From: Verrucomicrobiia bacterium | GTDB lineage: Bacteria > Verrucomicrobiota > Verrucomicrobiia > Limisphaerales > Pedosphaeraceae | Length of the DNA stretch: 64,000 nt | Assembly (NCBI GenBank): GCA_036268055.1 | Contig: DATAUW010000017.1 | Coordinates: 1 to 64,000 of the forward strand | Reading direction: 5' to 3' | Shown here: positions 14,545 through 41,715 of the stretch, piece after piece | Layout: every line of letters begins with the position of its first letter | How positions within the stretch are numbered: the first letter of the stretch is position 1 | Notes under the pieces: generated by a model | Databases searched by the model: none | What the model saw: the letters and a program-made list of their open reading frames with translations, nothing else | What the model was told of the DNA's origin: nothing | Translations under genes and position numbers: made by a program

Positions 14545-15348
14545 TTATTGGAGGAGTTTCAGGACCGATTGCGGGCTCTGATTAGCCTGAGCGAGCATGG
14601 ACGTGCCAGCCTGCACCAAGATCTGATACTTGGCGAAGTTGGTACTTTCCTGCGCGACATCCACATCGGAGATGGTGCTGTTCGCGGCCGAGAGGTTCGT
14701 CTGCAGAACGCTCAACTGCTGGCCGGTGTAGTTCAAACGCTGTTCGTTTGCACCCACGGTGGCACGGTCCGTCGCCAACTGGACGATCGCCGCGGTAACC
14801 GCCGTCAACGCCGAGGAGGCGCCGGTGGTGGTGGTGATGTCCGCGCCGGTCGCGCCGGTGTAGGCGGAAGCGGTCAGGTCAACGCCCGTCATCGAGAACG
14901 TATCGCCAGCGCCGTCGCTGGTGACCGTCAACGCCGAGGAACTGAACAAGCTGACACCGTTGAAGTTCTTCGAGGCAGCATCCGTGATATACGCGGAGAG
15001 CGTGCTGAATTGCTTCTGGTAGTCGGCGCGTTCGGAGTCGGTCTTCGTGCCGTCCTGCGCTTCAACAGCGAGGGTGGCCATCTGATCGAGAGCCGAACCG
15101 ATCTGTTGCAGATACCCGTCCTGGGTTTGTGCGAACGAGACCGCGTTGCTCACGTTGGCGTTGGCAGCTCCGGTCTGACCGATTTGCGCGGTCAGCGAGA
15201 TAGATTCCGCCAAGCCAGCGGGATCATCAGCAGGAGTTACGATTTTCGATCCAGAAGACAAGCGAGCCAGAGACTGGTTCAGCATGTTCGTGGACGTATT
15301 GAGGTTATTGGCACTGGTAAGCGCCGTGATGTTTGTATTGATTACCAT
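14545..15348 (-). CDS. fliC: Flagellin (copy 1)
   Basis: This is a minimal flagellin of 267 residues. It has the conserved N-terminal D0/D1 helix (MVINTNITALTSANNL, LARLSSGSKI, PADDPAGLAES) and C-terminal D1/D0 helix (LVQAGTSMLAQANQSPQSVL), with only a short surface-exposed middle of about 60 residues. It is the filament subunit and is secreted through the flagellar export gate. A second copy with the same length and nearly the same sequence lies 532 nt upstream. Each has its own sigma-28 promoter, structured leader and terminator. The differences concentrate in the Thr/Ser/Ala-rich middle (SDGAGDTFSMTGVDLTASAY). Confidence 0.97.
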   Translation of the reverse strand: MVINTNITALTSANNLNTSTNMLNQSLARLSSGSKIVTPADDPAGLAESISLTAQIGQTGAANANVSNAVSFAQTQDGYLQQIGSALDQMATLAVEAQDGTKTDSERADYQKQFSTLSAYITDAASKNFNGVSLFSSSALTVTSDGAGDTFSMTGVDLTASAYTGATGADITTTTGASSALTAVTAAIVQLATDRATVGANEQRLNYTGQQLSVLQTNLSAANSTISDVDVAQESTNFAKYQILVQAGTSMLAQANQSPQSVLKLLQ

Positions 15349-15879: not shown

Positions 15880-16683
15880 TTATTGGAGAAGTTTCAGGAC
15901 TGATTGCGGGCTTTGATTGGCTTGCGCGAGCATGGACGTGCCGGCTTGCACCAGGATTTGATACTTGGCGAAGCTGGTGCTCTCTTGCGCGACATCCACA
16001 TCGGTGATCTGGCTGTTCGCGGCGGAGAGGTTCGTCTGCAACACACTCAACTGCTGGCCAGTGTAGTTCAAACGCTGTTCGTTTGCACCCACGGTCGCAC
16101 GATCAGTGGCCAACTCGACGATCGCCGCCGTGACCGCCGTCAGGGCCGAGGCCGCGCCGGTGGTGGTGGTGATGTCCGCCGCGGTGGCGCCGGAATAAGC
16201 CGAGGTGCTCAGGTCAACTCCAGTCATGGAGAAGGTGTCTCCCGAGCCGTCCGTCGTGACGGTCAAGCTGCCGGCGCTGAAAAGGCTGACGCCGTTGAAG
16301 TTCTTCGCCGCGGTGTCCGTGATATAAGCGGACAGCGTGGAAAATTGCTTCTGGTAGTCGGCGCGTTCCGCGTCGGTCTTGGTGCCGTCTTGAGCTTCGA
16401 CAGCCAATGTGGCCATCTGGTCAAGAGCGGAGCCGATCTGTTGCAAATAACCATCCTGGGTCTGAGCAAAAGAAACAGCGTTGCTGACGTTCGAGTTGGC
16501 AGCGCCGACCTGGCTGATCTGGGCCGTCAGGGAGATGGATTCCGCCAAACCAGCGGGATCATCAGCAGGGGTCGAGATCTTGGAGCCAGACGAGAGCCGC
16601 GCCAACGAGGCGTTCAGCATGTTCGTCGAGTTATTCAGGTTGTTGGCACTGGTAAGCGCCGTGATGTTTGTATTAATGACCAT
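15880..16683 (-). CDS. fliC: Flagellin (copy 2)
   Basis: A 267-residue flagellin with the same short D0/D1-only architecture as copy 1: MVINTNITALTSANNL at the N-terminus, LVQAGTSMLAQANQSPQSVL at the C-terminus. Substitutions are few and mostly in the exposed middle (FSAGSLTVTTDGSGDTFSM). The two may form a mixed filament or be a dose duplication. AAGGAAAGAG precedes the ATG. The gene, leader, promoter and terminator are all duplicated, so the copies arose by tandem duplication of the complete transcription unit and then drifted. Confidence 0.97.
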   Translation of the reverse strand: MVINTNITALTSANNLNNSTNMLNASLARLSSGSKISTPADDPAGLAESISLTAQISQVGAANSNVSNAVSFAQTQDGYLQQIGSALDQMATLAVEAQDGTKTDAERADYQKQFSTLSAYITDTAAKNFNGVSLFSAGSLTVTTDGSGDTFSMTGVDLSTSAYSGATAADITTTTGAASALTAVTAAIVELATDRATVGANEQRLNYTGQQLSVLQTNLSAANSQITDVDVAQESTSFAKYQILVQAGTSMLAQANQSPQSVLKLLQ

Positions 16684-21646: not shown

Positions 21647-22508
21647 GGGTTGAGGGAAACAAAATGCGCGGGAAATGTAAAATGGGAAAAGGGTTTTGGG
21701 CTTTGGAGGGGGTGAATCTTGACGAGGGATAAAGATGTGGCCGGCGAGGGCGCCGGCCACTGCACGCGAGGGCGCGTGCGCTCCCCGGGAAAATAGGAAC
21801 AACCGGGCGAGGACGCCGTAAGTCAAGGGTAAGTCCAGTTTTTGGTCCAGTGCTCAGGACAATTACAAACAGGCGCCTTTGGGGATTTGGTCGTAGGCGA
21901 GCATGTCCTGGGCGAGTTTGCCTATTTGGGCGGCGGCGTGTTGGCGGGCTCGATGTTGCAGGACGAGGCGGTGAGTTTCGGCTTGGAGACTTTCCACGCC
22001 TTCGGCATAGCTGCGAAGTGCGCCGGTCTCGGTCACGACGCGCTCGTTCGCGAAATCCCGCAGTTGATTCAAGGCGGAATGGAGTTGCTGGATGCGCCCG
22101 AGGGTGGCGTCGGCGGAGGTTTCCGCGCAGCCGCCGTAATAGCCGAGAAAATTTCCATCGGCGTCGTGATGGGGAACGCCGCGATCAAGGATCCAGCGGT
22201 AATCGCCGCTATGGTGGCGCAGACGGTAACTCATCGCGAAGGAAAGGCGTTTTTCGAAGGAGCCGATATAATGCTGAATGCAGCGTTCGAGATCCTCGGG
22301 ATGCACGCCTTCGGCCCAGCCATTGCCGAATTCCTGTTGGAGGGTGCGGCCGCGGAAATCCAGCCACGCGCGATTAAAATGAAAGCAGCCCATGTCCTTT
22401 CCGGCGAGCCAGATCATGATGGGCGCGCCGTCGGCAAGGTGCTGGAAATATTCCAAGTCCGGGTTCACTTTGTTCAAGCATAGGGCGGGAGCGGGCAATG
22501 GCAAGGAT
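21610..22508 (+). repeat. Segmental duplication, copy 1 (NIF3 start plus PAS gene)
   Basis: This 899-nt stretch (first codons of the NIF3 gene, dispersed repeat, whole PAS gene) recurs at 26415-27291 in the same orientation with only scattered substitutions and one 22-nt deletion. The junction sequences differ sharply outside the shared part on both sides. Confidence 0.93.
21725..21790 (+). repeat. Dispersed double-hairpin repeat, copy 1
   Basis: The sequence AGGGATAAAGATG is followed by two adjacent GC palindromes, GGCCGGCG-AGG-GCGCCGGCC and GCACGCG-AGG-GCGCGTGC, then CTCCCCGGGAA. Copies occur at 26530-26573 (one palindrome lost) and 31611-31678. This is a REP/MITE-like intergenic element. 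Confidence 0.85.
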
Positions 22509-22546
22509 TGTTGGCCCGTTTTCCTGGGCGGCTTTTGCGGGGTCAC
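21863..22546 (-). CDS. PAS-domain protein (copy 1)
   Basis: About 110 residues form a PAS/PAC fold (YFQHLADGAPIMIWLAGKD, NRAWLDFRGRTLQQEF, WAEGVHPEDLERC, YRLRHHSGDYRWILDRGVP, FLGYYGGCAE). A helical tail follows, including RSYAEGVESLQAETHRLVL, which may be a coiled coil. No output domain is attached, so it probably signals by partner binding. The start is uncertain: 22546 is GTG and the first 14 codons lie outside the duplicated segment, while TTG or GTG codons nearer the PAS fold are possible. A near-identical paralogue lies at 26646-27287. Confidence 0.8.
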   Translation of the reverse strand: MTPQKPPRKTGQQSLPLPAPALCLNKVNPDLEYFQHLADGAPIMIWLAGKDMGCFHFNRAWLDFRGRTLQQEFGNGWAEGVHPEDLERCIQHYIGSFEKRLSFAMSYRLRHHSGDYRWILDRGVPHHDADGNFLGYYGGCAETSADATLGRIQQLHSALNQLRDFANERVVTETGALRSYAEGVESLQAETHRLVLQHRARQHAAAQIGKLAQDMLAYDQIPKGACL

Positions 22547-26414: not shown

Positions 26415-27291
26415 AGTATTTAACGATTGCGGAGAGGGATACGTGAGCCATGGGTTGAGGGAAACAAAATGCGCGAGAAATGTAAAATGGGAAAAGAGTT
26501 TTGGGCTTTGGAGGGGGTGAATCTTGACGAGGGATAAAGATGTGGCCGGCGAGGGCGCGTGCGCTCCCCGGGAAAATAGGAACAACCGAGCGAGGACGCC
26601 GTAAGTCAAGGGTAAGTCCAGTTTTTAGTCCAGTGCTCAGGACGATTACAAACAGGCGCCTTTGGGGATATGGTCGTAGGCGAGCATGTCCTGGGCGAGT
26701 TTGCCTATTTGGGCGGCGGCGTGTTGGCGGGCGCGATGTTCGAGGACGAGGCGGTGGGTTTCGGCTTGGAGGCTTTCGACGCCTTCGGCATAGCTGCGAA
26801 GTGCGCCGGTCTCGGTCACGACGCGCTCGTTCGCGAAATCCCGGAGTTGATTCAAGGCGGAATGGAGTTGCTGGATGCGCCCGAGGGTGGCGTCGGCGGA
26901 GGTTTCCGCACAGCCGCCGTAATAGCCGAGAAAATTTCCATCGGCGTCGTGATGGGGAACGCCGCGATCGAGGATCCAGCGGTAATCGCCGCTATGATGG
27001 CGCAGACGGTAACTCATGGCGAAGGAAAGGCGTTTTTCAAAGGAGCCGATATAATGCTGAATGCAGCGTTCGAGGTCTTCGGGATGCACGCCTTCGGCCC
27101 AGCCATTGCCGAATTCCTGTTGCAGAGTGCGGCCGCGGAAATCCAGCCACGCGCGATTAAAATGAAAGCAGCCCATGTCCTTTCCGGCGAGCCAGATCAT
27201 GATGGGCGCGCCGTCGGCAAGGTGCTGGAAATATTCCAAGTCCGGGTTCACTTTATCCGAGCATAGGGCGGGAGCGGGCAATGGCAAGGAT
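26415..27291 (+). repeat. Segmental duplication, copy 2
   Basis: This is the partner of 21610-22508. It carries the first 13 or so NIF3 codons (26415-26453, minus strand, a dead fragment), the dispersed repeat and a complete PAS gene. A 22-nt deletion between two GCGAGGGCG direct repeats removed one palindrome. It adjoins the displaced speA promoter on the left and VapBC on the right. Confidence 0.93.
26646..27287 (-). CDS. PAS-domain protein (copy 2)
   Basis: The product is nearly identical to the copy at 21863-22546 through the PAS fold and helical tail. Differences include CLNK to CSDK near the start, LQHRAR to LEHRAR, and DQIPKG to DHIPKG at the end. The 14 N-terminal codons of copy 1 are absent because the duplication ends there; the longest frame starts at a TTG. 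The paucity of changes means the duplication is recent or conversion is active. Whether it is expressed is unclear, as the sequence before it now belongs to the VapBC promoter region. Confidence 0.72.
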   Translation of the reverse strand: MPLPAPALCSDKVNPDLEYFQHLADGAPIMIWLAGKDMGCFHFNRAWLDFRGRTLQQEFGNGWAEGVHPEDLERCIQHYIGSFEKRLSFAMSYRLRHHSGDYRWILDRGVPHHDADGNFLGYYGGCAETSADATLGRIQQLHSALNQLRDFANERVVTETGALRSYAEGVESLQAETHRLVLEHRARQHAAAQIGKLAQDMLAYDHIPKGACL

Positions 27292-38209: not shown

Positions 38210-38475
38210 ATTTGTAATTCGATTTTGAATTCGATGATGCAAACACAAGATGGAGCGGCTGGCAATGTTCGTTTGTTTCGAGAGGCATCAATGGAAAGAC
38301 GGCGGCGTCCAGCCGCTGTACGGCAGAGCGGCAGTTGTGCCGTATTATTCGGCAAGTAGCTCATACCTATAGCTGTAGATAAGTTCATAAGCCATCACGA
38401 TAACTCAAATGAAAATAATTCCAAAAAGTAGTTGCATAGTCTCTTAGCCTGGTATAGATACTCTGTCGAAGTTAA

Positions 38476-38646
38476 ATGACTGCCAACATAAACATTTCAA
38501 CCAAGAGTTCGCCGGTTGCGACTGTCGCGCAAGCGATGGATTGCGGCTGGCTGGGCCGTGGTTGCGCGTTTTATTCCAATCCGGCCATCGCGCACGTTGC
38601 TCCGATGGCTCGTGGTAATAAGGCTCGATTGGAGGCAGGCAGGTAA
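38476..38646 (+). CDS. Small ORF 1 of the slipin-associated cluster
   Basis: The 56-residue frame reads MTANINISTKSSPVATVAQA, then MDCGWLGRGCAFYSNPA. It has two cysteines spaced C-x6-C in a Gly-rich context. A promoter-like TTGCAT-N17-TAGATA lies at 38433-38461, and a strong terminator follows the stop by 22 nt, so it forms a complete small transcription unit. The ribosome binding site is poor. The RNA itself may be the functional product. I do not recognise the peptide. Confidence 0.45.
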   Translation: MTANINISTKSSPVATVAQAMDCGWLGRGCAFYSNPAIAHVAPMARGNKARLEAGR

Positions 38647-38667
38647 TAGACTAAACCGAATTTTCTA

Positions 38668-38706
38668 AACCCTGCTTGCCGAAATGGAAGCAGGGTTTTT
38701 TGTTTT
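38668..38706 (+). terminator. Intrinsic terminator after small ORF 1
   Basis: A ten-base-pair stem AACCCTGCTT / AAGCAGGGTT with a ten-base loop is followed by TTTTTGTTTT. This is a textbook rho-independent terminator on the plus strand. Confidence 0.95.
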
Positions 38707-38781
38707 GTTGATACGACTGCTGAAGTTAACCGCAGCAACGAAAGGCTGAGTAACTGTGAGTCATAAATACGCGACGTCTAA

Positions 38782-38982
38782 ATGATGTCTATCAGCGCGA
38801 AACATAGTCTGGCGAAGGCGGGCGTCTGCTGGCCACCGATGGGGTGTGCCCATGAGCGACAACGCCAGGCGCCAGAAGCAACGCACTTGAGTTTACAATT
38901 TAAGGGCTTCGGAGGAGGTGTGCCCCTAAACACCGAAACGTCCACCGTGAAATACCTGTGGCTGCGGATCAACCAACCGTAA
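38782..38982 (+). CDS. Small ORF 2 of the slipin-associated cluster
   Basis: The 66-residue frame reads MMSISAKHSLAKAGVCWPPM, then GCAHERQRQ and a Gly-rich middle (KGFGGGVPLN). Its AKAGVCWPPMGCA weakly echoes AQAMDCGWLGRGCA of small ORF 1. It ends 25 nt before another strong terminator. There is no good ribosome binding site. It may be a peptide gene, or merely an open frame within a structured RNA of about 300 nt. Confidence 0.35.
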   Translation: MMSISAKHSLAKAGVCWPPMGCAHERQRQAPEATHLSLQFKGFGGGVPLNTETSTVKYLWLRINQP

Positions 38983-39007
38983 GGTGTTTGTTCTTTATCG
39001 TAATTGC

Positions 39008-39044
39008 AGGCCCGGCGGCGAAAGTCTCCGGGCCTGTTTGTTTT
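39008..39044 (+). terminator. Intrinsic terminator after small ORF 2
   Basis: The stem AGGCCCGG / CCGGGCCT closes a CGGCGAAAGT loop and is followed by GTTTGTTTT on the plus strand. Confidence 0.92.
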
Positions 39045-39071
39045 AGTCCCAGGTTCTACTTGGAGCTGGAC

Positions 39072-39137
39072 GCAAGCAGGAAAACGAGCGGCGGCGGTGC
39101 GAGGTTAAATCGCGTTGCCCATTCTTCGCCTGCTTGC
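39072..39137 (+). ncRNA. Structured leader of the 62-residue basic protein gene
   Basis: The outer stem GCAAGCAGG (39072-39080) / CCTGCTTGC (39129-39137) is perfect. It encloses a ten-pair helix GGCGGTGCGA / TCGCGTTGCC (39093-39102 / 39110-39119) with loop GGTTAAA. It sits 34 nt before the ATG of the basic protein, where it could control translation. Confidence 0.55.
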
Positions 39138-39171
39138 TTCTGTCTCAAACCTTCAACCAAAGGATGACTAT

Positions 39172-39360
39172 ATGAAAAATCCCATTCGTTTCCAAAGCCG
39201 TCTGTTGATTCGCCGCAGTTATAAGCCGGTGCGGGCTTATCGTCGCGCGAAAGGAATTACTTTTCGCCCAACGTCGTTGCGGCTGCCGCCCGTAATTGCC
39301 GGCAATCAAAATGAACCGCCTCCGGGCATCGAAGGCGAAGCCATCGTGAAATCAGTCTAG
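39172..39360 (+). CDS. Small basic protein of the slipin-associated cluster
   Basis: The 62-residue protein is Arg/Lys-rich in its first half (MKNPIRFQSRLLIRRSYKPV, AYRRAKGITFRP) and Pro-rich and acidic at the end (NQNEPPPGIEGEAIVK). AAGGA lies 6-10 nt before the ATG, the best ribosome binding site among the small ORFs here. Charge suggests RNA binding. The gene is flanked by a structured leader and an intrinsic terminator. No family recognised. Confidence 0.65.
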   Translation: MKNPIRFQSRLLIRRSYKPVRAYRRAKGITFRPTSLRLPPVIAGNQNEPPPGIEGEAIVKSV

Positions 39361-39428
39361 GCCATGCGGAGGCAAAATATCTTTGACGCCAGGGAGCATT
39401 GACGGTGTGGGCTTGGGGAAGTCCGTAA

Positions 39429-39468
39429 GCGGCGTTCGCTTGTAACGAGTGGACGCCGCTTTGCTTTG
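39429..39468 (+). terminator. Intrinsic terminator after the small basic protein gene
   Basis: A 14-pair stem (39429-39442 / 39446-39459, three G-T pairs) with loop TAA is followed by TTTGCTTTG. It separates the small ORF from the tRNA-like element. Confidence 0.85.
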
Positions 39469-39544
39469 TGCGACGCGAGCACCGGTGCCGGTCAGGACCT
39501 CACAGGCCTGATCGCAGTGGTTCAACTCCACTCTCGCGCCGCAC
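39468..39544 (+). ncRNA. tRNA-like RNA element
   Basis: The T arm is canonical: AGTGG-TTCAACT-CCACT (39516-39532). The acceptor-like helix CGCGAG/CTCGCG continues after one A-C mismatch as GTGCG/CGCAC, giving 12 positions instead of seven. An anticodon-like arm CAGG-A-C CTCACAG G-CCTG has a bulged A; its loop would place CAC at the anticodon. The D arm is reduced to ACCGGTGCCGGT and lacks the conserved GG. No encoded CCA follows. It is therefore not a standard tRNA, but either a decayed tRNA-Val(CAC) or a tRNA mimic. Confidence 0.6.
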
Positions 39545-39574
39545 TTTAATTTCAAATGCGCAGAACAAATTTTG

Positions 39575-39656
39575 GCAACTCTCGAACGCGAAGTAGATCG
39601 AGCGGTCCGGCGAAAGCCGGATGCGAGCCGGTGGAAGAGACCGGCCGGGAGGTTGC
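39575..39656 (+). ncRNA. Three-helix structured RNA upstream of the slipin gene
   Basis: The closing helix GCAAC-CTC / GAG-GTTGC (39575-39583 with one bulged T / 39649-39656) surrounds TCCGGC-GAAA-GCCGGA (39606-39621, GNRA tetraloop) and GCCGGT-N7-ACCGGC (39627-39645). TATTTTTATC follows. It lies 109 nt before the slipin ATG and may be a leader or a separate small RNA. I cannot assign it to a known class. Confidence 0.55.
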
Positions 39657-39764
39657 TATTTTTATCAAGTGAAGTGACGCGATTACGATGAAGGGCAAAC
39701 TCTCGTTAATGAGAAGCGATAGATAAACAAAAGCTTTAATCGGTTACTCGGAAGGAAATTAACT

Positions 39765-40328
39765 ATGAATGCGGAAGTCTATGTGGGGATAGTCTGGGTT
39801 TTGCTGGCCGTGGCGTTGTTTTTTTTGGCGCGGCGATCTTGTTTTGATGTGCCGGAAGGTTTTTACGGGCTGCTCTATCGGCATGGGGAATCGCTGCATA
39901 GAATCAGCCCGGGCCGGCATTATTTCTGGGCGCGCGGCCATAGCGTGCGGCTGGTGGACATGCGGAAAACAACCTTGAACATCGGCGCGCAGGATTTGGT
40001 GAGCGCGGATCATGTGCCGGTCAAGTTGAGTTCCGTGCTGACGTATCAGATCATCCAGGCGGAAACGGCGATTCATCAGGTGCAGGATTACCAACTGCAT
40101 TTGTGCGCGGCGGCTCAGGCGGAATTACGCGGATTGATTGCTCTCACGGCGATAGATGACTTGTTGGATCATCGTTGGAACATTTCGTTCCGGCTATTAT
40201 CCCTGGTGCAGCCGCACGCGGATAGAATCGGCATCGAGCTTCACGCGGTTGAAGTGTGCGAGATCGTTTTGCCTGAAACAAGCGCAGCGACCACGAGATG
40301 CGGCTTGTTTCCCGTGCTGCCGGATTAA
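39765..40328 (+). CDS. Slipin-like SPFH/band-7 membrane protein, C-terminally short
   Basis: The 187-residue protein has an N-terminal membrane helix (6-22) and an SPFH core: VPEGFYGLLYRHGESLHRIS, PGRHYFW, VRLVDMRKTTLNIGAQDLVS, then VKLSSVLTYQII and IGIELHAVEVCEIVLPE. The wording around YGLLYR..PGRHYFW and LxIGAQD resembles slipins found with RtcB RNA ligase. Normal slipins run 250 or more residues, with a coiled coil after EIxLPE; here the frame stops 17 residues later (TTRCGLFPVLPD). GGAAGGAAAT precedes the ATG. No rtcB is nearby in the window. Confidence 0.82.
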   Translation: MNAEVYVGIVWVLLAVALFFLARRSCFDVPEGFYGLLYRHGESLHRISPGRHYFWARGHSVRLVDMRKTTLNIGAQDLVSADHVPVKLSSVLTYQIIQAETAIHQVQDYQLHLCAAAQAELRGLIALTAIDDLLDHRWNISFRLLSLVQPHADRIGIELHAVEVCEIVLPETSAATTRCGLFPVLPD

Positions 40329-40329
40329 T

Positions 40330-41715
40330 TCAATATTCGCGGTCGGTCACGATGCCCGGTTGCGGAACCGGATAACGGCCTTCGGCATCCGAAGCGACCG
40401 GCGGCGGAGAATTGAGTGTCAGTTTGGCCACGCCCGGCGCGAGTTCAATGTCCGAGTTGAGCATTTCGTCGTAGGTGATTTCCTTGCCGGTGTGGGCAGC
40501 CTTGCGGCCAAGCGAACAGGTCACACTGGCTTGGACGCCGCGTTTGACCTCGCTGTAAGGCTTGTCGTGGAGAATCGCTTCAACCAGATCGTTCCATTCG
40601 TTCAAGTAAGGATCTTCCTCGGCGGGTTTCACCTTGGAAGTCCAGATCGTATTATTGGACAACGGAGCTTGGCCGCTGTGAGTGCTGGAAGGCATGCCGC
40701 AATCGGCGTATTTGGAAACAACGGCCATGCCCTTGCTCCCGTGCGCGTAACTGGAATAAATGTCGTTGCAGCCAAGCATGCAGCGTCCGTCCAGATAAAG
40801 TTTCGCGCCATCGGCAAAAGTATATTCGACCGAATACGTATCGAAATTTTGGTCCACATACAAATCACCGGCGCGTGAATGCCGGTAATGACGGCCGCCA
40901 AGCGCCTGCGCTTTGATCGGCCAGGCATTTTTCATCCAGCAGAGATGATCAATGTGGTGGATATAAAAATCGTTGTAGCAACCGCCACTGGCCCAGATGA
41001 AGCTGTGAAACCGCGAAATCTGCCAGAGCAATTCGCTAGGCTGGCCGGGCCATTTCTCGGAGAACGCCGAAGCCAGTGGCCCCGCCATGCGATAACCCCG
41101 CATCAGGTTGATTTCACCGATCTCGCCGTCCTGAATGCGCTTTTGTAATTCCTGCATCGGACGGCTGTGGCGCGACATGAGGCCGACACCGACCTTCAAG
41201 TTTTTCGCGGACGCATCATCGGCAAGCTTCAACATGCGGCGAGACGAAGGCCCGTCCGCCGTGAGCGGCTTTTCCATGAAGACATGCAACCCCTTTTGAA
41301 TGGCGTAAGTGAAATGCACCCAGCGAAATGCCAGCGGCGTCGTGAAGATGGCGATGTCGCCCGGCTTGAGACAGTCCATCGCTTTTTGATAACCGTCGAA
41401 GCCGATGAAACGGCGGTCGGGCGGCACGTCCACAGATTTTCCATGCTGCTGGCTCAAGGCGCTGTAAGTGCTCGCCAAGCGATTCTCAAAAACATCCGCC
41501 ATCGCGACGAGTTTCATCGGACATTGCTTGACCGAAAGCGCGTTGCTCGCCGCACCGCCGCCGCGACCGCCGCAGCCGATCAGCGCGATCTGAATCGTAT
41601 TGGTCTCCGCGCCATAGACATGGGGAATCGCCGTGCCCGCCAGCGCGGAAATGGCGGCGAACCGCCCGGTGGTTTTGATAAATTCGCGACGGTTGGGCTG
41701 CGGAGGTTGGTTCAT
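40330..41715 (-). CDS. Tat-exported Gfo/Idh/MocA family oxidoreductase
   Basis: The N-terminus (NRREFIKTTGRFAAISALAG) is a twin-arginine signal. The Rossmann domain has IALIGCGGRGGGA (NAD-binding) and the family EKP motif in FMEKPLTADGP, where the lysine is catalytic. The C-terminal domain includes HHIDHLCWMKNAWPIKA. Such exported sugar or inositol dehydrogenases are numerous in Verrucomicrobiota and Planctomycetota. The length of 461 is normal. It is convergent with the slipin gene, with one nucleotide between stops. Substrate unknown. Confidence 0.92.
   Translation of the reverse strand: MNQPPQPNRREFIKTTGRFAAISALAGTAIPHVYGAETNTIQIALIGCGGRGGGAASNALSVKQCPMKLVAMADVFENRLASTYSALSQQHGKSVDVPPDRRFIGFDGYQKAMDCLKPGDIAIFTTPLAFRWVHFTYAIQKGLHVFMEKPLTADGPSSRRMLKLADDASAKNLKVGVGLMSRHSRPMQELQKRIQDGEIGEINLMRGYRMAGPLASAFSEKWPGQPSELLWQISRFHSFIWASGGCYNDFYIHHIDHLCWMKNAWPIKAQALGGRHYRHSRAGDLYVDQNFDTYSVEYTFADGAKLYLDGRCMLGCNDIYSSYAHGSKGMAVVSKYADCGMPSSTHSGQAPLSNNTIWTSKVKPAEEDPYLNEWNDLVEAILHDKPYSEVKRGVQASVTCSLGRKAAHTGKEITYDEMLNSDIELAPGVAKLTLNSPPPVASDAEGRYPVPQPGIVTDREY

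Follow-up and report, generated by a model that had tools for sequence, protein, structure and literature searches.

A putative attenuator leader of tRNA arrays with an all-twenty-amino-acid leader peptide in a Verrucomicrobiia bacterium

The trp, his, ilv and thr operons of enterobacteria are controlled by attenuators composed of a short open reading frame (ORF) near the promoter, an intrinsic terminator, and a mutually exclusive antiterminator that is controlled by the ribosome. To our knowledge, each attenuator of this kind described so far responds to a single amino acid or to a few. Here we describe a cluster at positions 38400-40330 of a 64-kb stretch of DNA (the window; 64,000 nucleotides of contig DATAUW010000017.1) from a Verrucomicrobiia bacterium of the Pedosphaeraceae. 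All features of the cluster lie on the plus strand, and coordinates refer to the window unless a locus label (L) is given. Its first part, 38431-39046, is probably the leader of a tRNA-array operon, with a translation-coupled attenuator predicted to sense a shortage of nearly any aminoacyl-tRNA. Like the enterobacterial attenuators, this leader contains a promoter-near short ORF (small ORF 1, sORF1), an intrinsic terminator, and a competing antiterminator. Unlike them, sORF1 does not repeat the codons of one or a few amino acids but covers all 20; its stop codon is also where the antiterminator strand is located, and the genes under the leader are tRNAs and repair genes instead of biosynthetic genes.

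Arrays of tRNA genes have been described in other bacteria. According to a study of Anabaena sp. PCC 7120, the trn array, rtcB, a slipin gene and HNH genes are co-induced by translational stress, and the known control of the trn operon and TrcR regulon is the repressor TrcR; a search of that paper found no description of attenuation of the array (PMC10272220). Verrucomicrobiota relatives of the window locus likewise have a large tRNA array with rtcB, slipin and HNH. Mycobacterial tRNA array units are closely packed and redundant in their tRNAs and enclose an HNH gene (PMC5966550, PMC12803027), whereas the arrays of Verrucomicrobiota also carry a conserved leader and repair genes. A leader with all 20 amino acids was not found near the single actinobacterial array examined (Tsukamurella). 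The rsr-yrlBA-rtcBA operon with RtcR (PMC7790460) is comparable in that the relatives combine RtcB, Ro60/TROVE, RtcR and a tRNA-like RNA. The genome studied here differs from that operon, since it lacks RtcR and TROVE, has apparent leader-peptide control, and contains tRNA-like elements (E and F) that are not YrlA by Rfam.

The leader was traced in other genomes with an exact pattern taken from element B, the conserved RNA that follows sORF1. The pattern was run over 257 Gb of bacterial and archaeal genomes, in which about 0.2 chance matches are expected by our estimate. It matched 50 stretches, all but three of them titled Verrucomicrobiota, and those three have unspecific titles. In most of the 50 loci the sORF1 region (element A) and element B are followed by same-strand tRNAs in the order Gly-Ala-Asp-Pro-Arg-Asn-(Ser)-sORF3-Ile-Phe, after which often come RtcB or TROVE, element F, Arg-Thr-His tRNAs, slipin, a Cys tRNA, element E and HNH. 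Approximately 12 of the 50 stretches are tRNA-free, some because the stretch ends. In BLASTN and nhmmer searches, A (38431-38595), B (38661-39037), C (the sORF3 region), E (39466-39546) and F (39572-39660) of the window matched array loci. Carriage of the leader by phages was considered and rejected, as the pattern had no match in viral contigs; a search of plasmids gave no homologue of sORF1. The conserved core, consisting of sORF1, terminator 1, RNA B and terminator 2 (Table 1), is the leader of a tRNA array, and the window locus is best read as such a leader with the remnant of a stress tRNA array.

Table 1. Positions and properties of the features in the cluster
Feature	Positions	Strand	Properties
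Promoter-like site	38432-38458	+	TTGCAT, 15 nt, extended -10 (TGG TATAGA); sigma-70-like, read by eye, consensus only; spacing of 15 is short
sORF1, 56-aa leader peptide with all 20 amino acids	38476-38646	+	homologous ORF in ~38 loci
Antiterminator strand GGCAGGCAGG	38634-38643	+	directly before sORF1 stop codon; 10 of 10 pairs with 38671-38680
Element B, conserved leader RNA	38661-39037	+	most conserved core 38887-39003; nhmmer 120-353 bits in arrays
Terminator 1 (putative attenuator)	38670-38701	+	CCCTGCTTGCC-GAAAT-GGAAGCAGGG-TTTTTT; hairpin 38670-38695; folding z -4.2; good U-tract; conserved
boxA-like motif TGTTCTTTAT	38989-38998	+	end of element B; TCTTT invariant in 15 homologues
Terminator 2	39006-39046	+	after element B; hairpin 39006-39036; folding z -4.4; good U-tract; equivalent hairpin in most homologues
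sORF3, 62-aa basic peptide	39172-39360	+	homologues share M..I.RYQSQLLYRRSYKPxR
Hairpin 3	39427-39461	+	from terminator-like scan; 16 pairs; poor U-tract; folding z -5.1
Element E, tRNA-like RNA	39466-39546	+	~9-bp acceptor-like stem, minimal D-arm, 10-nt loop with CUCACAG, T-arm, no CCA
Element F	39572-39660	+	RNA related to tRNA-Glu(UUC)-like array element; anticodon loop replaced by GAAA tetraloop in window
Slipin (SPFH/Band 7), RNA-repair/tRNA-array clade	39765-40328	+	Pfam PF01145, E 9.8e-19; C-terminus truncated

The sORF1 leader has a conserved short ORF at the start of the transcript, followed by a terminator and a competing antiterminator that overlaps the end of the ORF. Repeated control codons are absent from sORF1, which instead encodes each of the 20 amino acids once or more. 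The 10-mer adjacent to the stop codon (GGCAGGCAGG in the window, GGTAAGCAGG in most loci) is complementary to the 5' arm of the terminator approximately 30 nt downstream. All 10 pairs can form in 20 of 35 loci and nine of 10 in another 11; the remaining four include loci in which the wrong motif was picked. The arms of a locus pair better with each other than shuffled arms do (p 0.0006), and compensatory pairs are found: C-G in the window and L158 where most loci have U-A, C-G for G-C in L139, and A-U for G-C in L137 and L148. The antiterminator is held at the stop codon even where the reading frame differs. Judged from these sequences, the layout is that of translation-coupled attenuation. 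Homologues also carry TTGACT or TTGCAT, a spacer of 17-18 nt, and TATNNG at the spot of the putative promoter before sORF1. Separately, a hairpin at 39073-39147, between terminator 2 and sORF3, has arms (GCAAGCAGG and CCTGCTTGC) identical in sequence to the terminator 1/antiterminator pair.

In the proposed mechanism, RNA polymerase would start just upstream of sORF1. A ribosome that reaches the stop codon would cover GGCAGGCAGG, terminator 1 would form, and transcription would stop. If the ribosome stalls earlier, with almost any aminoacyl-tRNA scarce, GGCAGGCAGG would anneal to the 5' arm of terminator 1, and the polymerase would read on. Readthrough would pass RNA B into the downstream genes, and the boxA-like end of B may help the polymerase past terminator 2 and the untranslated array. 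In relatives, the downstream set of tRNAs, RtcB, Ro60/TROVE, slipin, HNH and sORF3 would serve to replace and repair damaged translation machinery. The array tRNAs have been lost here, and the leader, whose expression in this organism is presumed, precedes sORF3, a pair of tRNA-like RNAs that do not decode, and a slipin of reduced length.

The amino acid composition of sORF1 is the feature that sets the leader apart. All 20 amino acids are present (20/20) in the window and, when the peptides are read from the conserved start, in 26 of 35 homologues, against ~3% of random peptides of that length and 2.4% of real 56-residue stretches of proteins in the window. Among representatives with less than 70% identity, 18 of 24 are 20/20, compared to a mean of 5.3 and a maximum of 11 in 3000 column shuffles. 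Trp is found in 25 of 25 representatives but is spread over eight different columns, and Phe, His and Gln behave alike. The +1 and +2 frames of the same DNA are 20/20 in two and none of 36 cases, respectively, and slipin windows used as a control revealed no excess of 20/20. A literature search, judged by title, found no paper on a leader peptide holding all 20 amino acids.

Alternatively, sORF1 could encode a functional peptide, such as a small toxin or regulator, with terminator 1 merely ending the transcript and the 20/20 composition arising as a by-product. The homologues have a conserved start, a conserved length and an N-terminal MKTCMNI motif, and their median ratio of nonsynonymous to synonymous substitution rates (dN/dS) is 0.69, below 1, all of which speaks for such a peptide. 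However, the peptide turns over fast while single Trp, Phe, His and Gln residues are retained at shifting positions, and the antiterminator stays fixed at the stop codon across differing frames. A functional peptide is quite unlikely to be the explanation. The fast evolution of sORF1 is expected if selection acts on composition more than on sequence.

A second copy of the leader is located elsewhere in the same genome (L183 14130-14615, minus strand, contig C30; MMTHANISTPEWPMMPTRSCLLSRGYMFNPGASIKGQSQSFEAGFDRVEAGR), and its diverged peptide is also 20/20. This copy has the same antiterminator and terminator, then element B and a 198-amino-acid ORF, with no tRNAs, and the leader may be a portable control module.

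A comparable arrangement is found in cyanobacterial arrays related to the trn array of Anabaena. These plasmid-borne tRNA arrays begin with an ORF of ~72 amino acids, unrelated in sequence to sORF1, then a perfect terminator and an HNH gene (L169 11605-11823; L170-L180). All 12 homologues of this ORF are 20/20, compared to ~12% of random peptides at that length; a transposase interrupts one of them (L178), and another (L180) was read from an uncertain start. In the intact loci, a stretch of 6-7 nt near the end of the ORF (AGCGGG in most) is complementary to an arm of the terminator. Column shuffling is uninformative for this leader because its columns are too conserved. The comparison is suggestive of convergent 20/20 leaders in Verrucomicrobiota and cyanobacteria but is not proof.

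Several observations weigh against a sensor of nearly every aminoacyl-tRNA. Relatedness is controlled only partly in the 20/20 test, and at 50% identity the excess narrows to six of 10 peptides against a shuffle mean of 1.8 and maximum of 7, although the mean number of distinct residues in that set is still above all shuffles. Glu in sORF1 of the window is confined to the last four codons, and Asp is often within the last eight. Residues of the final codons can hardly be sensed, and a ribosome stalled there would partly cover the antiterminator strand. The cyanobacterial leaders are in part closely related sequences with conserved columns, and one alternative frame is also rich in different amino acids. 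Finally, the leader in the window has no tRNAs to regulate.

Conservation in the leader is highest in element B, whose core has a column identity of 80%. Its predicted fold has a closing stem (AAACACC/GGUGUUU), inner hairpins and a hairpin with the sequence GGGCUUC..GAGG..GCCC; support for this fold from covariation is weak because the core hardly varies. Across homologues, B ends in UGUUCUUUGU or UGUUCUUUAU. A similar UGCUCUUUGA is located upstream of the 16S rRNA of this genome, where the leader motif is TGCTCTTTGA. The end of B resembles a boxA-type antitermination signal, which could serve an untranslated array. Another reading is that the main sensor is B, as a riboswitch that binds a ligand and controls terminator 2, with sORF1 in a minor role. 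The strong conservation of B and its position directly before terminator 2 are in line with this possibility, but B has no match in Rfam, its boxA-like end points to antitermination, and the sORF1 attenuator is complete by itself. We consider a riboswitch improbable and favor attenuation at sORF1.

The original prediction, made from the window sequence alone, had joined three small ORFs, three strong terminators, two hairpin-rich RNAs, a tRNA-like element and the slipin gene into a candidate undescribed RNA-based or RNA-damage-linked module built on slipin, with a basic peptide and a tRNA mimic. The cluster is real and conserved, and every element except hairpin 3 has homologues in other genomes; what unites the elements was misread. 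Two of the small ORFs, sORF1 and sORF3 (the basic peptide), are conserved. The third (sORF2, 38782-38982) is inside element B, its frame is broken in L036, L074 and L077, and it is rejected as a protein, being instead a piece of the conserved RNA. All three hairpins are strong and the first two have good U-tracts, whereas the third has a poor one, and since the homologue search found no counterpart it is rejected as a conserved terminator. The second hairpin-rich RNA (element F), the tRNA-like element (E) and the slipin gene were correctly recognized. The prediction would have failed had these ORFs and RNAs not been conserved next to orthologues of slipin; apart from sORF2 as a protein, they are.

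A module centered on slipin, with the RNAs and the basic peptide as its effectors, would be consistent with the tie of this slipin clade to loci with RtcB, RtcR and TROVE, and with the conserved tRNA-like RNAs nearby. However, the arrays hold the leader, sORF3, E and F apart from one another, these elements are also present in loci without a neighboring slipin, and the second leader of this genome precedes a different gene. It is very unlikely that slipin is the core; it appears as one downstream cargo gene of a tRNA-array leader.

Homologues of sORF3 are placed between tRNA-Asn/Ser and tRNA-Ile/Phe, and sORF3 has no match in Pfam, NCBIfam or PHROG. The order in the window is A-B-C-E-F-slipin, so that E is shifted relative to its position in most arrays. 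ARAGORN called no tRNA in the whole 64-kb window, which thus lacks the dense tRNA cluster of an array, and no Rfam family reached threshold there. Element E folds better than 200 of 200 shuffles (z -4.1) and is 92% identical over 76 nt to its homologue in genome G001 and 75-82% identical to those in L071, L073, L076 and L103; its tRNA-Sec match is just 19 bits. Element F has 21 homologues, with double changes at 12 of 19 consensus pairs. Its array homologues are tRNA-Glu(UUC)-like with an encoded CCA, and the one in L163 is called tRNA-Glu by ARAGORN; the T-loop is enlarged in the family of the window. A role of E and F as decoding tRNAs was rejected, given the absence of an ARAGORN call, the 10-nt loop and missing CCA of E, and the GAAA tetraloop of F. 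Both are conserved, non-decoding relatives of tRNAs. Some homologues of F have insertions of up to ~200 nt at the anticodon-arm position (L069 7978-8137, L131 3286-3425, L033 15315-15605), which are possibly intron-like. YrlA or bacterial Y RNA had no Rfam match in the window. In other arrays (L149 378-513, L163 1195-1436), Deinococcus Y RNA and YrlA gave Rfam matches below threshold (E 4e-4 to 6e-4), and the matched RNAs are plausible partners of the TROVE proteins there.

The slipin in the window belongs by sequence to a clade apart from generic slipins, and the link to RNA repair in the original prediction was borne out by this clade. Its members adjoin RtcR and RtcB in L037 and L075; RtcR is also present in L072, L078-L080 and L083. 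Other members accompany tRNA arrays, either close by or within them, and these arrays carry HNH, RtcB-family and TROVE genes whose families were confirmed; in L073 the RtcB of the array falls under TIGR03073 ('release_rtcB'). Loci such as L037 and L075 have the RtcR and RtcB of an RtcR-controlled RNA repair operon. Control of the window locus by RtcR was rejected, as the genome assembly contains no RtcR. The assembly also has no TROVE, and its single RtcB is on another contig, which agrees with the predicted absence of a local ligase. This RtcB (L038 10224-12900, contig C34) lacks ~33 N-terminal residues and is downstream of an integrase-like frame and a tRNA-Asn, an arrangement that looks like import on an integrating element. 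No paper combining slipin, RtcB and a tRNA-like RNA was found in the literature searched.

The state of the locus raises the possibility that it is a decaying fossil of a tRNA array, in which the leader and RNAs have no function here even if the mechanism is real in relatives. The window is free of tRNAs, its slipin (187 amino acids) has ~80 fewer C-terminal residues than orthologues, RtcR and TROVE are missing, and the only RtcB is elsewhere and without its N-terminus. A similar tRNA-less copy with a broken slipin is present in genome G225 (L084). These losses suggest that the local module may be partly degenerate. A uracil-DNA glycosylase gene is located downstream of slipin in the window and likewise, ~8 kb away, in genome G004, which suggests an ancestral location with later deletions. 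On the other hand, element E retains its high identity to the G001 homologue compared to ~49% identity among slipin proteins of the family. In addition, sORF1 is only distantly similar to its homologues yet remains 20/20 with an intact 10-bp antiterminator and a compensatory C-G pair, and the second leader copy is likewise 20/20. A functionless fossil is possible but less likely than not.

Other structured RNAs accompany the repair and array slipins of relatives. One of these, R1, is directly upstream of slipin and comprises a P1 domain (CCAGCAGCC..GGUCCUGCGCAU), a T-arm-like hairpin and a three-way-junction RNA, with double changes at 23 of 31 consensus pairs and no match in Rfam (L036 6352-6456, L073 8361-8465 and 16 other loci). 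A model of R1 run over 320 genomes gave 19 strong matches, 17 of them directly upstream of a repair/array slipin; in G151 it is 120 bases before a slipin match that scores with generic ones, and G108 holds a second copy. R1 was considered for the window and rejected, as its best score there is 6.9 bits and none was found in the genome; the RNAs of the window are different. GOLLD RNA (RF02032), a large structured RNA found near tRNA clusters, has no match in the window, whereas one relative (G033, L042 3522-3759) has a 64-bit match downstream of slipin, truncated where that stretch ends. Near an RtcR/slipin locus (L055 2510-2692), Acido-Lenti-1 RNA is matched twice, in opposite orientations. 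Elsewhere in the window are two very similar flagellin genes in tandem (14545-15348 and 15880-16683) and a protein gene that is present twice in nearly identical form, approximately 4 kb apart (21863-22546 and 26646-27287).

Taken as a whole, the results give somewhat more support than not to a general sensor of aminoacyl-tRNA sufficiency, in which a leader peptide, under selection to include each of the amino acids and coupled to an attenuator, would switch on reserve tRNAs and translation-repair genes upon failure of any tRNA. Such a sensor would have arisen with unrelated sequences in Verrucomicrobiota and on cyanobacterial plasmids, and would have been kept or re-used here after loss of the tRNAs. 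If this is true, an all-twenty attenuator would be a one-gene readout of translation health. The purpose and control of tRNA arrays, which are normally silent, are debated, and such an attenuator would explain how they could answer many translational insults, including tRNA-cleaving toxins. The findings also link tRNA arrays with RtcB, Ro60 and slipin and provide structured RNA families that Rfam lacks.

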